Source: a virus. Taken from it: 20,878 nt of DNA. Position 1 is the stretch's first letter. Every line of letters starts with the position of its first letter. The translations under genes and the position numbers were made by a program. A model generated the notes under the pieces. The model did not search any database. It was not told the DNA's origin and saw only the letters and a program-made list of their open reading frames with translations. Positions 3-19,295 of this stretch are shown here, in pieces. The stretch lies in IMG/VR virus record IMGVR_UViG_3300044622_000196, positions 1 through 20,878 of that record; one strand, given 5' to 3'.

Positions 3-605
3 AAGCAGAACCTTATTTACCTTATGCAGCTTGTAGGTATCAACAATCCTGGAGATGTTAAGTTAGCAATTTTAGAGGATTGGATAAGAACAGAGTATGG
101 TAACTTTACAATAAACGAAGTTAAAGTAGCGTTTAAGCAAATGGTAGCCAATGACTTTATAGATCACTACCAAAACTTTAGCCCTGCATACTTTAGTCAG
201 GTTATGGATAGGTACAAGAAAAAAGCAAACGAAGTAAGAAAAATGATGCCACAGGAACGAGTTGAAGCAATACCACACTTAACCGATTTAGAGATAATTG
301 ATTACAGTTACCAGGAATATAAGGTTCTGGAAAATAGAACTTTTGACAGGTTGTTTAACCCTTTATCCGTATTTACAAAGCTTAATAGTTCAGGCATCAA
401 GGTATGGACAAAAGAAGATGGAGCAGTTGCTAAAAAGAAACTAATGGAAATTATTACCTACAAGGCTAATAAAATGGACATCATAAGTGCAAAGCAGTAC
501 CGGGACGAATGGACTGAACAATGGTTAAAGAACCAGGCTCGAGCAGTTGCAGTAGCTTTATTTTTTGAGGAACAAATTTTACAAAACAAAACAACGTTTA
601 AATGA
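3..605 (+). CDS. conserved phage protein, 5' end outside the window
   Basis: The reading frame is open to the left edge of the window. The first ATG inside is at 24 (193 residues), but codons upstream of it are also open, so the true start probably lies outside. The protein is mostly helical and charged, with no membrane segment. A stretch around residues 15-65 (YGNFTINEVKVAF, then HYQNFSPAYFSQVMDRYKK) resembles, from memory, conserved Bacteroidota phage proteins that sit in replication regions. Its stop codon overlaps the ATG of the following methyltransferase in an ATGA junction, which suggests translational coupling and an operon of DNA-metabolism genes. I cannot assign a function. A replication accessory role is inference from position only. 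Confidence 0.75.
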   Translation, partial: KQNLIYLMQLVGINNPGDVKLAILEDWIRTEYGNFTINEVKVAFKQMVANDFIDHYQNFSPAYFSQVMDRYKKKANEVRKMMPQERVEAIPHLTDLEIIDYSYQEYKVLENRTFDRLFNPLSVFTKLNSSGIKVWTKEDGAVAKKKLMEIITYKANKMDIISAKQYRDEWTEQWLKNQARAVAVALFFEEQILQNKTTFK

Positions 606-1879
606 GACACGGCAGTTTATTTAGCGGAATAGGTGGCTTTGATTTAGCAGCAGAATGGTGCGGTTGGGAAAACGTATTTCATTGCGAATGGAATACCTTT
701 GGTCAAAAAGTTTTAAAACATCACTTCCCAAATTCAATATCTTACAATGACATCACAAAAACAGATTTCACTATTCACAGAGGAACAATCGACATCATTA
801 GTGGTGGCTTCCCTTGCCAACCCTACTCAAGTGCAGGAAAGCGACTTGGCAAAGAAGATGAGAGACATCTCTGGCCGGAAATGCTTAGAGCAATTCGGGA
901 AATTCAACCGAGTTGGGTTGTGGGCGAGAACGTTCGCGGACTTACTAATTGGAACGGGGGATTGGTATTCGACGAGGTGCAAACTGAGTTGGAAGCTGAA
1001 GGCTACGAAGTCCTCCCGTTTTTACTTCCAGCTTGTGCCGTTAACGCACCACACCGAAGAGACCGCATTTGGTTTATTGCCTACTCCAACAGCTTCAGAC
1101 AATCCGGAGAAAAATACAGGCAAAATGAAACAAGACGGACTTCAAAAGAGAGCGAGAACCGGATTGCTACCAACACCAACTTGTATGGACAGCAGCAAGA
1201 ACGGGGATATGACTGGAGCAGCCAAATTGTTAATGGGAGCAACAACCAGAAGTTCAGGTCAGCAAATACAAAGGACTTTGACAGATGCAGTACAAATGGA
1301 GATATTAAAGGAGAACCCTGCTCTTGCAATGGAACTTGCATCAAAAGAATTTATGAAAAGAACCAAACTTCCTACACAAATAGAGTTTGTAGAATGGATC
1401 AAAACAATAGGAACGCAGAAGGAACTATCGGAAAAACTAAATTTGAAATTAACGAAAGTAGAGCATTGGTTCAGGAAGGACAAGATAGGTTTCAGTTATC
1501 CATCAATAGAGGATTGGACTTTAATCAAGAGCCATTATCAAGTACCAATGGAGTTAGACAACAAGATGTCTTATCAAGAGTCAATAGAATGGAAGGGTCT
1601 TTTGCCAACACCGACATTACAAGAATACACGAACAGCACATTACCCCCATCACAAATAAAAAGAAACAATATAGCAGGAGTTCTTTTGAGGAAAGGTGTT
1701 TCAGCACATTCCCAACTGAACCCCCTATTTGTGGAGGAGATGATGGGCTTCCCAAAGAATTGGACAACATTACCTTTTCAAAATGGAGAAACGAAAGCAT
1801 CAAAGCCTACGGGAACGCAATAGTTCCACAAGTAGCTTATCAAATATTTAAAAGTATTTGTCAATATCAAAAACTTTAG
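602..1879 (+). CDS. dcm: DNA (cytosine-5) methyltransferase, phage type
   Basis: Transfers a methyl group from S-adenosylmethionine to carbon 5 of cytosine in DNA, most likely to protect phage DNA from host restriction. The 425-residue frame shows motif I (LFSGIGGFDLA, residues 6-16), motif IV with the catalytic Cys72 in GGFPCQPYSSAG, motif VI ENVRG (109-113), motif VIII (HRRDRIWFIAY, 151-161) and motif X near the C-terminus (AYGNAIVPQVAYQIF, about 402-416). These are the diagnostic C5-MTase blocks, so the family call is firm. Between residues 162 and about 370, where the target-recognition domain belongs, this frame is rich in N, S, T, R, Q and E and poor in hydrophobic residues, while the +1 frame encodes a well-formed protein over the same DNA (747-1823). 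No cognate restriction enzyme is seen, so it is probably an orphan enzyme. Target sequence unknown. Confidence 0.93.
   Translation: MRHGSLFSGIGGFDLAAEWCGWENVFHCEWNTFGQKVLKHHFPNSISYNDITKTDFTIHRGTIDIISGGFPCQPYSSAGKRLGKEDERHLWPEMLRAIREIQPSWVVGENVRGLTNWNGGLVFDEVQTELEAEGYEVLPFLLPACAVNAPHRRDRIWFIAYSNSFRQSGEKYRQNETRRTSKESENRIATNTNLYGQQQERGYDWSSQIVNGSNNQKFRSANTKDFDRCSTNGDIKGEPCSCNGTCIKRIYEKNQTSYTNRVCRMDQNNRNAEGTIGKTKFEINESRALVQEGQDRFQLSINRGLDFNQEPLSSTNGVRQQDVLSRVNRMEGSFANTDITRIHEQHITPITNKKKQYSRSSFEERCFSTFPTEPPICGGDDGLPKELDNITFSKWRNESIKAYGNAIVPQVAYQIFKSICQYQKL
747..1823 (+). CDS. overprinted ORF inside the methyltransferase gene, LLPTPT-repeat protein
   Basis: This 358-codon ORF lies wholly inside the methyltransferase gene in the +1 frame; the frame is open from 717 and the first ATG is at 747. 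It looks like real protein: a hydrophobic/aromatic block at residues 57-97 (VGLWARTFADLLIGTGDWYS and onward to SSRFYFQL), three copies of LLPTPT (110-115, 140-145, 285-290), a helical segment with a probable helix-turn-helix (about 220-262, TQKELSEKLNLKLTKVEHWF), and a C-terminal block LNPLFVEEMMGFPKNW (324-339). From memory, LPTPTxxD and LNPxFVEWMMGFPxxW blocks occur in target-recognition regions of other phage C5 methyltransferases and in separate small phage proteins. It could be a separate protein, a target-recognition segment joined to the methyltransferase by frameshifting, or a reading-frame relic. No Shine-Dalgarno sequence precedes the ATG. Expression is unproven. Confidence 0.6.
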   Translation: MTSQKQISLFTEEQSTSLVVASLANPTQVQESDLAKKMRDISGRKCLEQFGKFNRVGLWARTFADLLIGTGDWYSTRCKLSWKLKATKSSRFYFQLVPLTHHTEETAFGLLPTPTASDNPEKNTGKMKQDGLQKRARTGLLPTPTCMDSSKNGDMTGAAKLLMGATTRSSGQQIQRTLTDAVQMEILKENPALAMELASKEFMKRTKLPTQIEFVEWIKTIGTQKELSEKLNLKLTKVEHWFRKDKIGFSYPSIEDWTLIKSHYQVPMELDNKMSYQESIEWKGLLPTPTLQEYTNSTLPPSQIKRNNIAGVLLRKGVSAHSQLNPLFVEEMMGFPKNWTTLPFQNGETKASKPTGTQ

Positions 1880-2892: not shown

Positions 2893-3119
2893 AACACCGC
2901 AATTATTTAGACCTGCATAGACCTAACTACGAAATGGTGCAGAATGGTTATGTGCGTAATATAGATTTAAACATCTTAAAAATGTACGAGCATATTTATC
3001 GCAAGTATATGAGTCCAGATTTCATATTAACAGTATGGTGCAGCCATTGTATATTTGATATGATTAAAAGGCTTTACGAATGGTACGATTTACAACCTAA
3101 AAATAAAAAGAATGGCTAA
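2883..3119 (+). CDS. conserved small phage protein of unknown function
   Basis: About 78 residues from ATG 2883; a GTG at 2874 would add three residues. The stop overlaps the next gene. The C-terminal half (SPDFILTVWCSHCIFDMIKR) contains a WCxxC pair followed by an amphipathic helix, a pattern I recall from short conserved proteins of Bacteroidota phages. There is no signal peptide or membrane segment. It lies between the CxxC membrane protein and the sugar-modifying genes, and I see nothing that ties it to either. Function unknown. Confidence 0.7.
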   Translation: MEIEHRNYLDLHRPNYEMVQNGYVRNIDLNILKMYEHIYRKYMSPDFILTVWCSHCIFDMIKRLYEWYDLQPKNKKNG

Positions 3120-3591
3120 CTTTATCCACCCCACCGCTATCATTGGCGATAACGTAATTATCGGAGACGGAAACTACATTGGTGCTTATTGTATTATCGG
3201 AGACAAAGCAGAGCATAAAAAGTTCTGGAATAAAGAAAAAGGAAAAGTATACATAGGCGATAACAATGTTATTACAGGACTTGTAACAATAGACGCAGGA
3301 ACTGAGATTGATACTTTTATTGGCAATAATTGTTTTATAATGAAACACGCACACATCGGACACGATTGCACAATCTTAGACAATGTAACAATTAGCTGCG
3401 GAGCAAAAATAGGTGGGCATTCTATTGTAGATCAAGGTGCTAATATAGGACTTAACGCAGTTTTACACCAGTTTGCAAACATCGGAGAGAATTGTATGGT
3501 GGGCGCAAGTGCTTTTGTAAAGGGAGATGCAAAACCAAATACTAAATATGCAGGAGTACCGGCAAGGGAAATCGGCTCAAACATAAGATAA
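3112..3591 (+). CDS. left-handed beta-helix acyltransferase (LpxA/acetyltransferase-like)
   Basis: The 159-residue protein consists almost wholly of hexapeptide repeats ([LIV]-G-x-x-x-x), beginning IHPTAIIGDNVIIGDGNYIG and continuing through IGHDCTILDNVTISCGAKIG and VDQGANIG to IGENCMVGASAFV. The C-terminal KYAGVPAREIG is the typical exit of sugar acetyltransferases. Proteins of this fold trimerise and move acetyl or acyl groups from CoA or ACP to sugars, as in UDP-GlcNAc acyltransferase LpxA. It is shorter than LpxA (about 260 residues) and lacks the helical C-terminal domain, so an O- or N-acetyltransferase is more likely. The following two genes are glycosyltransferases with a 1-base stop/start overlap, which points to joint modification of a glycan. 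The exact substrate cannot be read from the sequence. Confidence 0.85.
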   Translation: MANFIHPTAIIGDNVIIGDGNYIGAYCIIGDKAEHKKFWNKEKGKVYIGDNNVITGLVTIDAGTEIDTFIGNNCFIMKHAHIGHDCTILDNVTISCGAKIGGHSIVDQGANIGLNAVLHQFANIGENCMVGASAFVKGDAKPNTKYAGVPAREIGSNIR

Positions 3592-4274
3592 TGAAAGTAG
3601 CTATTTTATTACTTGCACAAAACAGACACGATTTAACTCAGCGTGTAATTAACCAAAACTTTTTTAACTCTGGTTATAATGCGGACTGCTTCTTAATAGA
3701 CAACGGAAGCGACACGCAAGAAACGTTTAACTACCCGTTTGCCGGTTATGACTTATCAAAAGAAAAGCGAGGCATAGCAGCCGGGGTTAATGCAGGGTTA
3801 CGCATAACCCAAAACTATGATGCGGTTTGTTTGTTAGCTAATGATATTTTACTTCCTGAGAATTGGTTGTCAAAATGGGTTATGTTTTCTCAACGTGTGT
3901 CAAAAACTGGCATTATTGGTATACATTGTGTAGAAGATTTGCCCCCAATAGTAGACGGAGTACATAAAACGCATACACCTTTTGGCGATAACTTTATTAC
4001 CCGTGAACTTATAGATGCAGTTGGCGGTTACAATGAAGCCTATGACCCTTATGGAATGCAAGACAGAGATTATGGGGAACGTGCAACTATTACAGGCTTT
4101 ACTAATTACTACTTACCAGATATGCGCTCAGAACATATAGGACACGATGTCGGTAATGGAACAGATTACAGACGAATGAAAGACGAAAGCTTGGCACGGG
4201 CGCAAAGTGTATGGGAAAAATACCAAGACATCTATCACAACCAAAAGAATATAAGATGCGAATACTTTGTATAA
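3591..4274 (+). CDS. family 2-type glycosyltransferase
   Basis: The 227-residue protein has the GT-A fold pattern: an N-terminal beta strand and acceptor loop (MKVAILLLAQNRHDLTQRVI), FLIDNGSDT at about 34-42, a GVNAGLR helix at about 65-71, and LLANDILLPENWL (about 81-93), where ND stands at the place of the usual DxD metal ligand. Near 143-163 it has GGYNEAYDPYGMQDRDYGER, matching the ED-like acceptor region of GT2 enzymes. It would transfer a sugar from a nucleotide-sugar donor. No membrane segment is visible, so it is probably cytoplasmic. It starts at the stop of the acyltransferase gene and overlaps the next glycosyltransferase gene. Confidence 0.82.
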   Translation: MKVAILLLAQNRHDLTQRVINQNFFNSGYNADCFLIDNGSDTQETFNYPFAGYDLSKEKRGIAAGVNAGLRITQNYDAVCLLANDILLPENWLSKWVMFSQRVSKTGIIGIHCVEDLPPIVDGVHKTHTPFGDNFITRELIDAVGGYNEAYDPYGMQDRDYGERATITGFTNYYLPDMRSEHIGHDVGNGTDYRRMKDESLARAQSVWEKYQDIYHNQKNIRCEYFV

Positions 4275-5251
4275 CTTCTGCCAACTCAGGTGTAGGACTG
4301 CATAGAATTATGATGCCGATAGTACACTTAGAAAAAGAGTACGCACTTATAACAGATGTACTTAATGACGAGTTATTAGAGCAGGGTTGGGACATTGTCT
4401 TAATGAATAGAATGCTTAACGAAATAGATGCAAAGCAAATGGACACCTGGCGCACTAAGTACGGCTTTAAATTAGTAGTCGATAACGATGACCATTGGGA
4501 ACTAAACGAAAGCCATTTATTGTATTTAAGATATAAGCTTAACAATATACCTAAACTAATTACCGACTACTTAAAGATAGCAGACCTTTGCACCTGCACA
4601 CACGAAAGGTTAGCAGGAGAGATAAGCCCATTTAATAAGAACGTTCACATCTTACCAAACGCATTACCTTACGGGCAAGAGCAGTTCCAGGATAACAAGA
4701 CCGAAGATTACAAGGTTAGATTATTCTGGAGCGGAAGCGGAACGCACGAAAGGGATATTGAAATACTAAGGCAACCTTTTAAAAGGTTACAAGGTATGAA
4801 TATTAGAACTGTTATAGCAGGTTACAATGACGGGGAGAAACCTATATGGGATAAAATGATTGATGCTTTTACTTGCGGACTAAAGCTTAATCCCACGATC
4901 TATAACTATGCAAGGGTTACAGAATATATGGGTGCTTATACGGACTCAGACATTTCAGTTATCCCACTTGTAGATAACAAGTTCAACGCTATGAAGTCAA
5001 ATTTAAAGGTATTAGAAACGGCTGCTAAAAAGAACCCTGCCATAGTTAGCTATGTCAATCCGTACTTAGATATGCCAGTACATTACGTTAAAAGTCAGAA
5101 GGATTGGTATAAACATATAAGAGATTTAGTAAGTGATGCGGATATGCGAAAGGAAAGCGGACAAAAGTTATTTGAGTTCTGCCAAAAGAAGTATAACTTT
5201 GACGAGATAAATTTAGACCGAAAGTATATTTATAGTAAACTATGCCAGTAA
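4256..5251 (+). CDS. GT-B glycosyltransferase (family 4-like)
   Basis: About 331 residues from the ATG at 4256; a farther ATG at 4211 would add 15 residues lying inside the previous gene. The start at 4256 gives MRILCITSANSGVGLHRI, the typical first strand and glycine loop of GT-B enzymes. The middle contains VVDNDDHWELN, then an interdomain stretch with VHILPNALPYGQ, then LFWSGSGTHERDIEIL, the start of the C-terminal donor-binding domain. Late in the protein, SDISVIPLVDNKFNAMKSNLK resembles the donor-site region of family 4 enzymes, although the usual EGF/ExE signature is modified. Together with the GT2 and acyltransferase genes it forms a three-gene cassette. Target could be host surface sugar, virion glycan or modified DNA. 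Confidence 0.8.
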   Translation: MRILCITSANSGVGLHRIMMPIVHLEKEYALITDVLNDELLEQGWDIVLMNRMLNEIDAKQMDTWRTKYGFKLVVDNDDHWELNESHLLYLRYKLNNIPKLITDYLKIADLCTCTHERLAGEISPFNKNVHILPNALPYGQEQFQDNKTEDYKVRLFWSGSGTHERDIEILRQPFKRLQGMNIRTVIAGYNDGEKPIWDKMIDAFTCGLKLNPTIYNYARVTEYMGAYTDSDISVIPLVDNKFNAMKSNLKVLETAAKKNPAIVSYVNPYLDMPVHYVKSQKDWYKHIRDLVSDADMRKESGQKLFEFCQKKYNFDEINLDRKYIYSKLCQ

Positions 5252-6301: not shown

Positions 6302-6651
6302 TATTATTATCAAGTCAAATAGAGAGCATAGCCTCACGCAAAGACAAAACAATAAAGCTAACTTTAGCAACCCAAGAACTAAGTCCTAAAGATGCAGCTA
6401 ATTTATTCCAACTTAACCAACAGTTCTGCTACTTAGCAATTAAAGAAGAGCCATTTAGTAAAGAAGAGCAAGACATCGTAGAAAACCTTAAAGCAGACCC
6501 GGACACCTTTAAGACACCAAGCCAAAGATTAAGGGGCATCTTATACAGAACATACGAACAAGACAACGAAGGGTATAAAGATTTTAACACATATTACTTG
6601 TCAGTAATGGACAGGATATGTCAGCACTATAAAACAAAAATAGATGGGTAG
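6298..6651 (+). CDS. conserved phage protein upstream of terminase
   Basis: A 117-residue protein whose pattern I recognise from many tailed phages: an N-terminal beta region (SRKDKTIKLTLATQELSPKD), a central FKTPSQRLRGILYRTYEQ block and a final helix DFNTYYLSVMDRICQHYK. Proteins with this PSQRLRxxLY block are common phage hypotheticals and to my knowledge have no established activity. It begins in an ATGA overlap and ends with an 8-base overlap with the terminase small subunit gene, so it is part of the packaging operon. Confidence 0.78.
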   Translation: MILLSSQIESIASRKDKTIKLTLATQELSPKDAANLFQLNQQFCYLAIKEEPFSKEEQDIVENLKADPDTFKTPSQRLRGILYRTYEQDNEGYKDFNTYYLSVMDRICQHYKTKIDG

Positions 6652-7054
6652 GCATAAAGCAATAGAAACACCAGAGTTAATGCTTCAATACTTTACTGAG
6701 TATTGCGAGTATTGTAAAAGCAATCCTATTAAAGTTCACGATTTCGTAGGTAAAGACGGAGACGAAGTTTACAGATTAAGGGAGCGACCTTTGACAATAG
6801 AAGGCTTTGAAAACTATTGTTACAATCAAGGAATTATAAGCGATTTAGGAAGATACTTTGCCAATTTAGATAATGCTTATGAGGATTTTCGTACCATCTG
6901 TTCGCGTATTAGGAAAACAATTAGACAAGACCAAATCGAAGGGGGTATGGCAGGGGTTTACAATCCAAGCATTACTCAGCGTTTGAATAGCTTAGTAGAG
7001 AAGTCAGAAAACAAACACGAAGTAAGTGAGATCAAAATAACTTACGATAGATAA
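6644..7054 (+). CDS. terS: terminase small subunit (gp3-like DNA-packaging protein)
   Basis: A 136-residue protein of the gp3-type DNA-packaging family. It recognises phage DNA and hands it to the large subunit. Residues 1-25 (GRHKAIETPELMLQYFTEYC) match the family's opening. The core RERPLTIEGFENYCYNQGII and YFANLDNAYEDFRTICSRIR is its conserved body, and EGGMAGVYNPSITQRLNSL is the typical C-terminal oligomerisation stretch. The stop overlaps the large-subunit ATG by one base, the canonical small-large terminase order. Confidence 0.88.
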   Translation: MGRHKAIETPELMLQYFTEYCEYCKSNPIKVHDFVGKDGDEVYRLRERPLTIEGFENYCYNQGIISDLGRYFANLDNAYEDFRTICSRIRKTIRQDQIEGGMAGVYNPSITQRLNSLVEKSENKHEVSEIKITYDR

Positions 7055-8220
7055 TGCAGACAGTAGGCTTGAAGTTACATAACCCACACCCAGCGCAAAA
7101 GCAAGTAATTGAATGCGATAGTAGGTTTATTGTAATGATGGCAGGGAGAAGATTTGGCAAGTCCTTGATTAGTCAAACGATTAGCATAGACACGGCAGTT
7201 AATAAAAAGCGAGTAGCTTACATTACACCTACTTACCAATTAGGCAAAATATTCTTTAAGGAAATAGTAGACCTGTTGCCATTAGAGATATACTCTAAGA
7301 ACGAAAGCGACCTGGTTATTACTTTCATAACGGGTGGCTCAATTCGTTTCTTTACAGGGGAAAGGTTAGACAATCTTCGTGGTTTAAAGTTTCACTTAGC
7401 CGTAATAGACGAGGCTTCCTTTATACCTAACTTGGAAGACGGGTGGCTCAACTCGATAAGACCTACCTTAACTGACTATAAGGGTAAAGCTATATTTTTA
7501 AGCACCCCTAAAGGTAAAAACTACTTCTTTAGTTTGTTTAGCAAAGCCGAACCCGATTGGCAAAGCTTTAAGTTTACGACATACGATAACCCTTACATTG
7601 ATCCAAACGAAATAGACGATGCTCGTAAGCAACTGCCAGAGGTTGTATTTGAGCAGGAGTATATGGCAAACCCTGCGGAGAACGCAGCAAACCCTTTCGG
7701 CACTCAACATATACGCAAGTGCTTACACCCGGTAACTACAATGCCGGTAGTAGCTTATGGAATTGATCTGGCGAAGTCGGTCGATTGGACTGTAATAGTA
7801 GGTTTAGACGAAGACGGGAATGTGGCTTATTTTGACCGCTTCCAAATGGATTGGCACAATACCAAGCAAACTATCCTTAGGCTGCCTAAATGCCCTATCC
7901 TAGTCGATTCTACGGGGGTTGGAGACCCGATACTCGAAGACCTGCAAAGAGAAGGGGTAATGATACAAGGATTAAAGTTTACAAGTTCAAGTAAGCAGCA
8001 GCTAATGGAAGGGCTACAAGCTGCGATACATCAAGGTAAAATAGGCTATCCTGAGGGGATAATAAGCCAGGAGTTAGAAGTATTTGAGTATCAATACACG
8101 GCAACCGGAGTAAAGTACTCAGCACCTTCAGGCTTTCACGATGATGCGGTTGTAGGCTTGGCTTTGGCTTGGCAGAACTTCAGCCTTAAACGTGGCACGG
8201 GTAGGTATGCCTTTCTATAA
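7054..8220 (+). CDS. terL: terminase large subunit (packaging ATPase/nuclease)
   Basis: A 388-residue packaging motor. The ATPase domain shows a Walker A motif AGRRFGKS (residues 30-37), Walker B LAVIDEAS (115-122) and the coupling motif FLSTPKGKN (148-156). The RNase H-like nuclease domain shows the acidic residues expected: Asp238 in GIDLAKSVDWT, Asp285 in VDSTG and Asp363/364 in FHDDAVVGLA. It pumps DNA into the procapsid through the portal and cuts it at start and finish. It is somewhat shorter than the usual 420-550 residues but carries both domains. No terminator follows; the next bases lead into the tiny-ORF region. Confidence 0.95.
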   Translation: MQTVGLKLHNPHPAQKQVIECDSRFIVMMAGRRFGKSLISQTISIDTAVNKKRVAYITPTYQLGKIFFKEIVDLLPLEIYSKNESDLVITFITGGSIRFFTGERLDNLRGLKFHLAVIDEASFIPNLEDGWLNSIRPTLTDYKGKAIFLSTPKGKNYFFSLFSKAEPDWQSFKFTTYDNPYIDPNEIDDARKQLPEVVFEQEYMANPAENAANPFGTQHIRKCLHPVTTMPVVAYGIDLAKSVDWTVIVGLDEDGNVAYFDRFQMDWHNTKQTILRLPKCPILVDSTGVGDPILEDLQREGVMIQGLKFTSSSKQQLMEGLQAAIHQGKIGYPEGIISQELEVFEYQYTATGVKYSAPSGFHDDAVVGLALAWQNFSLKRGTGRYAFL

Positions 8221-18773: not shown

Positions 18774-19295
18774 ATGCCTTGCGCTTTAACTCAAAATTAT
18801 ACCTTAGATTGTAAAGACAGTTTAGGTGGTATAACCGAAGTTTATTTTGCAGCAGCAGCAGACGTTACCTCAACTACCGAAGCAAGTGGTGTTATTACCG
18901 CACTTGTTAAGGCAGCAGGTAAAAGGTTCTTTAAGTACGAACTTGTAAAAGGTACTTCTCAAATCGTTGAGAACATCAATGCAAACGTACAGAACGGAAC
19001 TGTTTTCTATGCTCCAGAATTAACAGTAGTATTAAACAAATTACAAGCTAATACAAGAAACGAAATCTTGTTGTTAGCTCAAAACACTTTAGTAGCAGTT
19101 GCCAAAGATAACAATGGCAAATACTGGTACTTAGGTAAAACAAGAGGCTTAGACCTTACCGCAGGTAATGCTGGTACAGGAACGGCTGAAGGCGACAGAA
19201 GTGGTTACACTTTAACTTTCACAGGTGCAGAAGCGGCTATGGCTCCAGAGGTTAACTCTACAGTTGCAGCAGCTTTAACTACTCCTGGTTCTTAG
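18774..19295 (+). CDS. virion structural protein, candidate tail tube or decoration protein
   Basis: A 173-residue protein. The opening (CALTQNYTLDCKDSLGGITE, then VYFAAAADVTST) and KYELVKGTSQIVENINANVQ, YAPELTVVLNKLQANTRNEI, GLDLTAGNAGTGTAEGDRSG form a pattern I recall from abundant virion proteins of Bacteroidota phages. It is beta-rich with a conserved CKDSLGG near the start, and ends in a flexible Ala/Thr tail. The major tail protein is one candidate because no other tube protein is evident among the tail genes; a head decoration protein is another. It sits between two strong terminators. Confidence 0.72.
   Translation: MPCALTQNYTLDCKDSLGGITEVYFAAAADVTSTTEASGVITALVKAAGKRFFKYELVKGTSQIVENINANVQNGTVFYAPELTVVLNKLQANTRNEILLLAQNTLVAVAKDNNGKYWYLGKTRGLDLTAGNAGTGTAEGDRSGYTLTFTGAEAAMAPEVNSTVAAALTTPGS

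Follow-up and report, generated by a model that had tools for sequence, protein, structure and literature searches.

A cassette of three overlapping genes in a phage genome, encoding a hexapeptide-repeat acyltransferase (HEX), a GT2 glycosyltransferase and a GT4 glycosyltransferase, was found to be glycan-building: GT4 is constant, and the decorating enzymes are swapped. This description is well supported. The cassette most likely decorates the virion, which we infer to be the acceptor, an assignment held tentatively at a little short of an even chance. It was favoured because of the placement beside terminase and portal genes, the soluble enzymes and the precedent of the mycobacteriophages.

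The window analysed was IMG/VR virus record IMGVR_UViG_3300044622_000196 (20,878 bases). It is included entirely, at 99.995% identity, in a 34,859-base contig (G001; IMG/VR class linear), which was taken as a probably complete genome of about 34.7 kb because its own start recurs 127 bases before its end (127-bp terminal repeats). Megablast of the whole window against 50,697 GenBank phage records gave no close phage, and the matches of GT2 and HEX among these records were distant ones only. The cassette (3112–5251) lies on the same strand as the packaging and head genes, and the terminase genes start 1.4 kb downstream of it (Table 1). An acyltransferase and two glycosyltransferases, consecutive and overlapping, had been named in the preliminary description of this DNA, and they were borne out by Pfam and PHROG matches, predicted folds and selection. 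Median pairwise dN/dS was 0.039 for HEX, 0.067 for GT2 and 0.058 for GT4 (terminase 0.038), indicating strong purifying selection; these low values together with conserved motifs show that the cassette genes are not chance ORFs. All three products are soluble enzymes with no membrane span by hydropathy. The gene at 2186–2662 had been called sigma-like, which was not upheld: it matched no Pfam sigma family and gave a weak match to a PHROG 'transcriptional repressor' (0.001). Its homologues adjoin GT4 or HEX in L162, L301, L305 and L306.

Table 1. Features of the window in and around the cassette.
Feature	Position	Strand	Remarks
C5 DNA methyltransferase	602..1879	+	PF00145 2.7e-49; sporadic accessory gene, outside cassette
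Putative regulator, 158 aa	2186..2662	+	Homologues beside GT4 or HEX
Small membrane protein, 77 aa	2659..2892	+	Hydropathy peak 2.43; homologue in L305
HEX	3112..3591	+	LpxA-like left-handed beta-helix acyltransferase, 159 aa; Pfam Hexapep 3e-22
GT2	3591..4274	+	Soluble glycosyltransferase of predicted GT-A fold, 227 aa
GT4	4256..5251	+	Glycosyltransferase of predicted GT-B fold, 331 aa; constant cassette member
Terminase small subunit-like	6644..7054	+	Pfam GP3_package 8.6e-9
Terminase large subunit	7054..8220	+	phrog_2 2e-43

HEX matched the NCBIfam LpxA models at 7e-36, yet below the equivalog cut-offs (124 versus 226 and 120 versus 231 bits), and it is far shorter than the models (254–264 residues), with no full-length match. 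It shares the hexapeptide beta-helix and the His motif with the LpxA UDP-GlcNAc acyltransferase and differs from it in length and score. The motif HIGHD was present in 70 of 72 distinct HEX proteins; the His of this AHD/GHD motif in the beta-helix is presumably equivalent to the LpxA catalytic residue. The best solved relative was 8e62 (E 7e-35), for which a literature search found no paper.

GT2 matched Pfam Glycos_transf_2 at 1.7e-4 (22 bits, just below the curated cut-off of 23.3) and phrog_2456 glycosyltransferase at 6.8e-9; PF00535 was matched by six of the seven GT2 family members (best 1.9e-7). The folds of GT2 and GT4 were predicted because phmmer gave no solved relative of either, and the AlphaFold models were built on shallow alignments (10 and 7 rows). 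For GT2 the predicted structure was a GT-A fold (pTM 0.83) with a best Z of 19.4, to PcManGT; Z scores of 17–19 were obtained with many GT-A enzymes, which indicates the fold and says nothing on the substrate. Some relatives carry a second allele of 195 aa (GT2b), about 35% identical to the allele termed GT2a. The motifs NDIL and YGxxDxDY were present throughout (84/84 GT2 proteins, 21/21 GT2b).

The glycosyltransferase identity proposed earlier for GT4 was confirmed by a nearly full-length match to phrog_7162 glycosyltransferase (2e-58, with the longer ORF 4211–5251 as query), but its start had been placed at 4211, and 4256 was preferred because aligned lineage relatives start MRILCI or MKILCI. 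The predicted structure is a GT-B fold (pTM 0.70), superposing with Z 17–18 over about 300 residues (rmsd 5–6 Å) on GT4 enzymes such as HepE, PglA, BshA and PimA. WaaG is also among its nearest solved folds, and SenB belongs to the same fold group. KSNLKxLE was found in 133/133 GT4 proteins, one of the aligned rows having an internal stop. E-x7-E is the CAZy GT4 motif; its second Glu is invariant here (within KSNLKxLE), and at the first position the aligned sequences have a residue other than Glu.

Gene content was compared among related freshwater contigs selected through two neighbouring genes, the 2186–2662 gene (best 80 of 231 relatives) and the terminase (best 80 of 590). Neighbours were used as anchors because a cassette anchor would select for itself, and close relatives dominate both sets since the best 80 were taken for each. 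Contigs were scored with both flanks visible (72/80 and 48/80, respectively; 8/80 and 32/80 were dropped for a missing flank), and the two sets overlap partly. Among these best 80 per anchor, GT4 was found in every scored contig (72/72 and 48/48), and HEX and GT2 were found jointly in 66/72 and 46/48, neither ever alone. GT2a and GT2b were present in 50 and 16 contigs of the 2186–2662 set and in 30 and 16 of the terminase set. An optional 120-aa ORF sits between GT2 and GT4 in the lineage. As a separate observation, an optional PAPS-reductase-like gene (234 aa) was seen, flanked by the 79-aa gene on one side and by HEX or GT4 on the other (L129 1478–2182, PF01507 5e-8; L072 4231–4935; L137 7622–8326).

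The same three-gene order, a search for which had been proposed, was recovered in other phages. In a Chitinophagaceae MAG, a phage belonging to this lineage (L162) has the order HEX-GT2-GT4 with 67, 77 and 61% identity. This suggests the host group: the lineage would consist of freshwater phages that infect Chitinophaga-like bacteria. The order is kept (59, 32 and 37% identical) in a prophage of Chitinophaga varians KACC 19415 (L163) that represents another phage type; it differs in a 90-aa ORF inserted between HEX and GT2 and in lying in the interval from a phrog_2 terminase to an SPP1-type portal. In six loci (L163, L164, L165, L299, L302 and L303) GT4 lies immediately or almost immediately upstream of a portal gene confirmed by HMM, and in five of the six TylF-/CmcI-type sugar O-methyltransferases or other glycosyltransferases replace HEX; the upstream large terminase matched phrog_2 in L163, L164, L165 and L299, and that of L303 matched phrog_5902 (unknown function) alone. 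An SPP1-type portal gene follows GT4 in C. japonensis DSM 13484, C. sp. YR573, G400 (with the same ORFs in IMG/VR L304), L302 and L303, where other glycosyltransferases and CmcI-type/TylF O-methyltransferases occupy the place of HEX and GT2. L305 and L306 are rearranged, with the genes close together in the order GT4, 2186-type regulator, HEX and GT2. A weaker GT4 relative in G102 follows the portal and precedes a DegT-type aminotransferase, and Streptomyces phage KimJongPhill has an epimerase-methyltransferase-GT4 series followed by RnaseE, terminase and portal.

An identical chromosomal cluster, which would have indicated recent cargo, was not found among 394 genomes from the same family as the Chitinophaga genome G020. 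Seven of them gave a match at E ≤ 1e-8; the three strong matches were in phage or prophage context, and the four weak ones resemble generic glycosyltransferases, one of them (L250/L300) lying beside a portal. Cargo copied from the host chromosome was rejected on these counts.

Glycosyltransferase genes among packaging and structural genes are expected of a virion glycosylation cassette, and they were seen upstream of the terminase genes on the same strand in the window and in the terminase-portal interval in prophages. Also counted for decoration of the virion were the constancy of GT4, the gain and loss of HEX and GT2 as a pair, the two GT2 alleles and the purifying selection. Glycans are present on the capsid and tail tube of mycobacteriophages, whose virion glycosylation genes were described by Freeman et al. 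(2023), according to excerpts of PMC12619734; these excerpts also present phage-encoded glycosyltransferases and virion glycans that act as a shield. The present set differs from that of the mycobacteriophages, as far as those excerpts go, in including an LpxA-like acyltransferase and in the swapping of decorators. A literature search combining glycosylated capsids with phage glycosyltransferases and acetyltransferases in Bacteroidetes found nothing. Counted against the virion as target was the position of the GT4 homologues of phi92-like phages, which adjoin primase and DNA polymerase rather than head genes. That the enzymes have no membrane spans does not settle the matter, because cytosolic glycosyltransferases can also work on lipid-linked glycans of the host.

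O-antigen loci typically show modular sugar tailoring, and this was counted for a serious rival, modification of the host surface: the enzymes would alter LPS or exopolysaccharide on infected cells and so block superinfection or release progeny caught on receptor debris. The proximity of the GT4 model to WaaG and HepE (LPS/exopolysaccharide enzymes) and the LpxA-like character of HEX also fit such a role, and parts of the pelagimyophage paper (PMC7029224) argue for it in the case of phage glycosyltransferases. It is weakened by the score of HEX under the LpxA cut-off and its much shorter length, and by the prophage copies, which lie inside the terminase-portal interval and are not separate morons. 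A gtr-type O-antigen conversion operon consists of a membrane GtrA flippase, GtrB and a polytopic Gtr; no GtrA/GtrB-like partner, and no Pfam or PHROG match to any gtr-type component, was found in the cassette and the neighbours scanned, and HEX, GT2 and GT4 differ from the flippase and the polytopic Gtr in having no membrane span. Modification of the host surface was ranked below virion decoration as less likely. In a further reading the enzymes would serve counter-defence by glycosylating something outside the virion, for instance a host protein or a small molecule involved in defence. This is improbable: the GT4 fold group does include enzymes that act on small-molecule acceptors (BshA and SenB, for example), but such a function does not predict that several interchangeable tailoring enzymes lie next to the terminase and portal genes.

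If the virion is decorated, GT4 would transfer a sugar that all these phages share, GT2 would add a second sugar, presumably in that order, and HEX would O- or N-acylate (probably acetylate) the nucleotide sugar or the finished glycan. No nucleotide-sugar pathway was found in the phage, so the donors would be host-supplied. The enzymes would work in the cytoplasm, and their position would fit late expression. With GT4 kept, the exchange of GT2 and of the tailoring enzyme would make the coat chemistry on virion proteins differ from phage to phage. A broader and more doubtful proposal is a modular 'virion serotype' island in Bacteroidota phages, located next to the terminase and portal genes, that would write and diversify the glycan coat of the particle. 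Such an island would combine one constant GT4 with an exchangeable LpxA-like acyltransferase, TylF/CmcI-type O-methyltransferases, an aminotransferase and alternative GT-A enzymes; in viruses it would correspond to the O-antigen loci of bacteria, and recognition by hosts or protists may exert selection on it.

By default, the annotation given to phage glycosyltransferases is often DNA protection or O-antigen conversion. For this cassette the roles listed earlier were DNA glucosylation, conversion of the host O-antigen and glycosylation of the virion; glycan transfer stands, and DNA modification, which had been kept open because of the nearby methyltransferase, falls. The methyltransferase itself is real, but it was present in only 16/61 and 12/37 of the related contigs showing its slot (best 80 per anchor), so that most cassette-bearing contigs have none. 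Hydroxymethylating enzymes were indeed not visible: a thymidylate-synthase-type hydroxymethylase (PF00303) was found in 0/19 related records including G001 (the control matched in 9/14 genomes), and a TET/JBP dioxygenase (PF12851) was absent from 19 of 20 records including the window and G001, the positive control being G019. TAGT (PF20691) was matched by none of the seven members of the window's GT2 family at E ≤ 1 and was absent from G001 (13 records searched). Pfam scans of most other G001 ORFs gave no nucleotide-modifying enzyme; matches were to exonuclease, ERF, DnaA-like, GNAT, chitinase, HNH and VRR-NUC proteins. DNA modification via the adjoining methyltransferase was rejected on the presence counts and the missing partners.

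One relative (G019, 1/20 records) does carry a TET gene (4.7e-22) followed by TAGT (3.3e-23) at L172 1642–3253, inserted between an HNH gene and a 6080-type gene downstream of an ordinary HEX-GT2-GT4 cassette. The lineage can therefore gain true DNA-glycosylation machinery, as a separate and different module: TET/TAGT hypermodification modules are likewise phage glycosyltransferase modules, but they belong to a different family, require TET and are absent from G001. The phage with TET and TAGT lacks a PF00145 methyltransferase. Weak, sub-cut-off similarity to TAGT was seen in glycosyltransferases accompanying GT4 in L303 (3.5e-5) and in a phi92-like phage (0.001). The phi92-like coliphages (Justusliebigvirus, Phapecoctavirus) have a GT4 that shares about 30% identity from end to end and, like the window, a small GT-A gene that overlaps or abuts it; they differ in having two GT4 paralogues and no HEX, and their cluster, with two smaller glycosyltransferase genes, precedes primase and DNA polymerase and so adjoins replication genes. 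Passages of the BASEL study (PMC8594841) describe the Vequintavirinae and relatives including phi92-like phages as exceptionally restriction-sensitive despite putative dTDP glycosylation machinery, to which we infer that their GT4 homologue belongs. Taken with the upstream methyltransferase, these likenesses would favour glycosylation of phage DNA bases by the cassette enzymes; against the missing partners, the rarity and separateness of the TET and TAGT pair and the restriction sensitivity, it is very improbable.

The comparison distinguishes the cassette from a real DNA-glycosylation module of the same lineage and, across several phage types, links it with the terminase and portal genes. Whether Bacteroidota phages glycosylate their virions thereby becomes directly testable, and the natural GT4-only, GT2a and GT2b variants form a ready comparison set.

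Two further features of the window were observed. Behind the putative capsid gene, 18774–19295 encodes a 173-aa protein with a Thr/Ser/Ala-rich C-terminal tail, which was judged tail-tube-like from reading of its sequence, with no family name, and is a candidate glycan acceptor. A conserved ORF in the +1 frame (747–1823, + strand) overprints the gene of the C5 methyltransferase. A literature search on methyltransferase overprinting found nothing, and none of the eight other window genes tested had a similar open +1 frame. The frame is open for 368/425 codons, which was reached by 0/2000 synonymous-codon shuffles, and likewise 0/2000 shuffles reached the openness observed in the methyltransferases of L065 and L061. 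It was open for 178–407 codons in 26/26 distinct methyltransferase copies read (gene length 250–464 aa), and the product of the ORF matched phrog_1008 'DNA methyltransferase' at 3.5e-27; the gene may be a true dual-coding gene.
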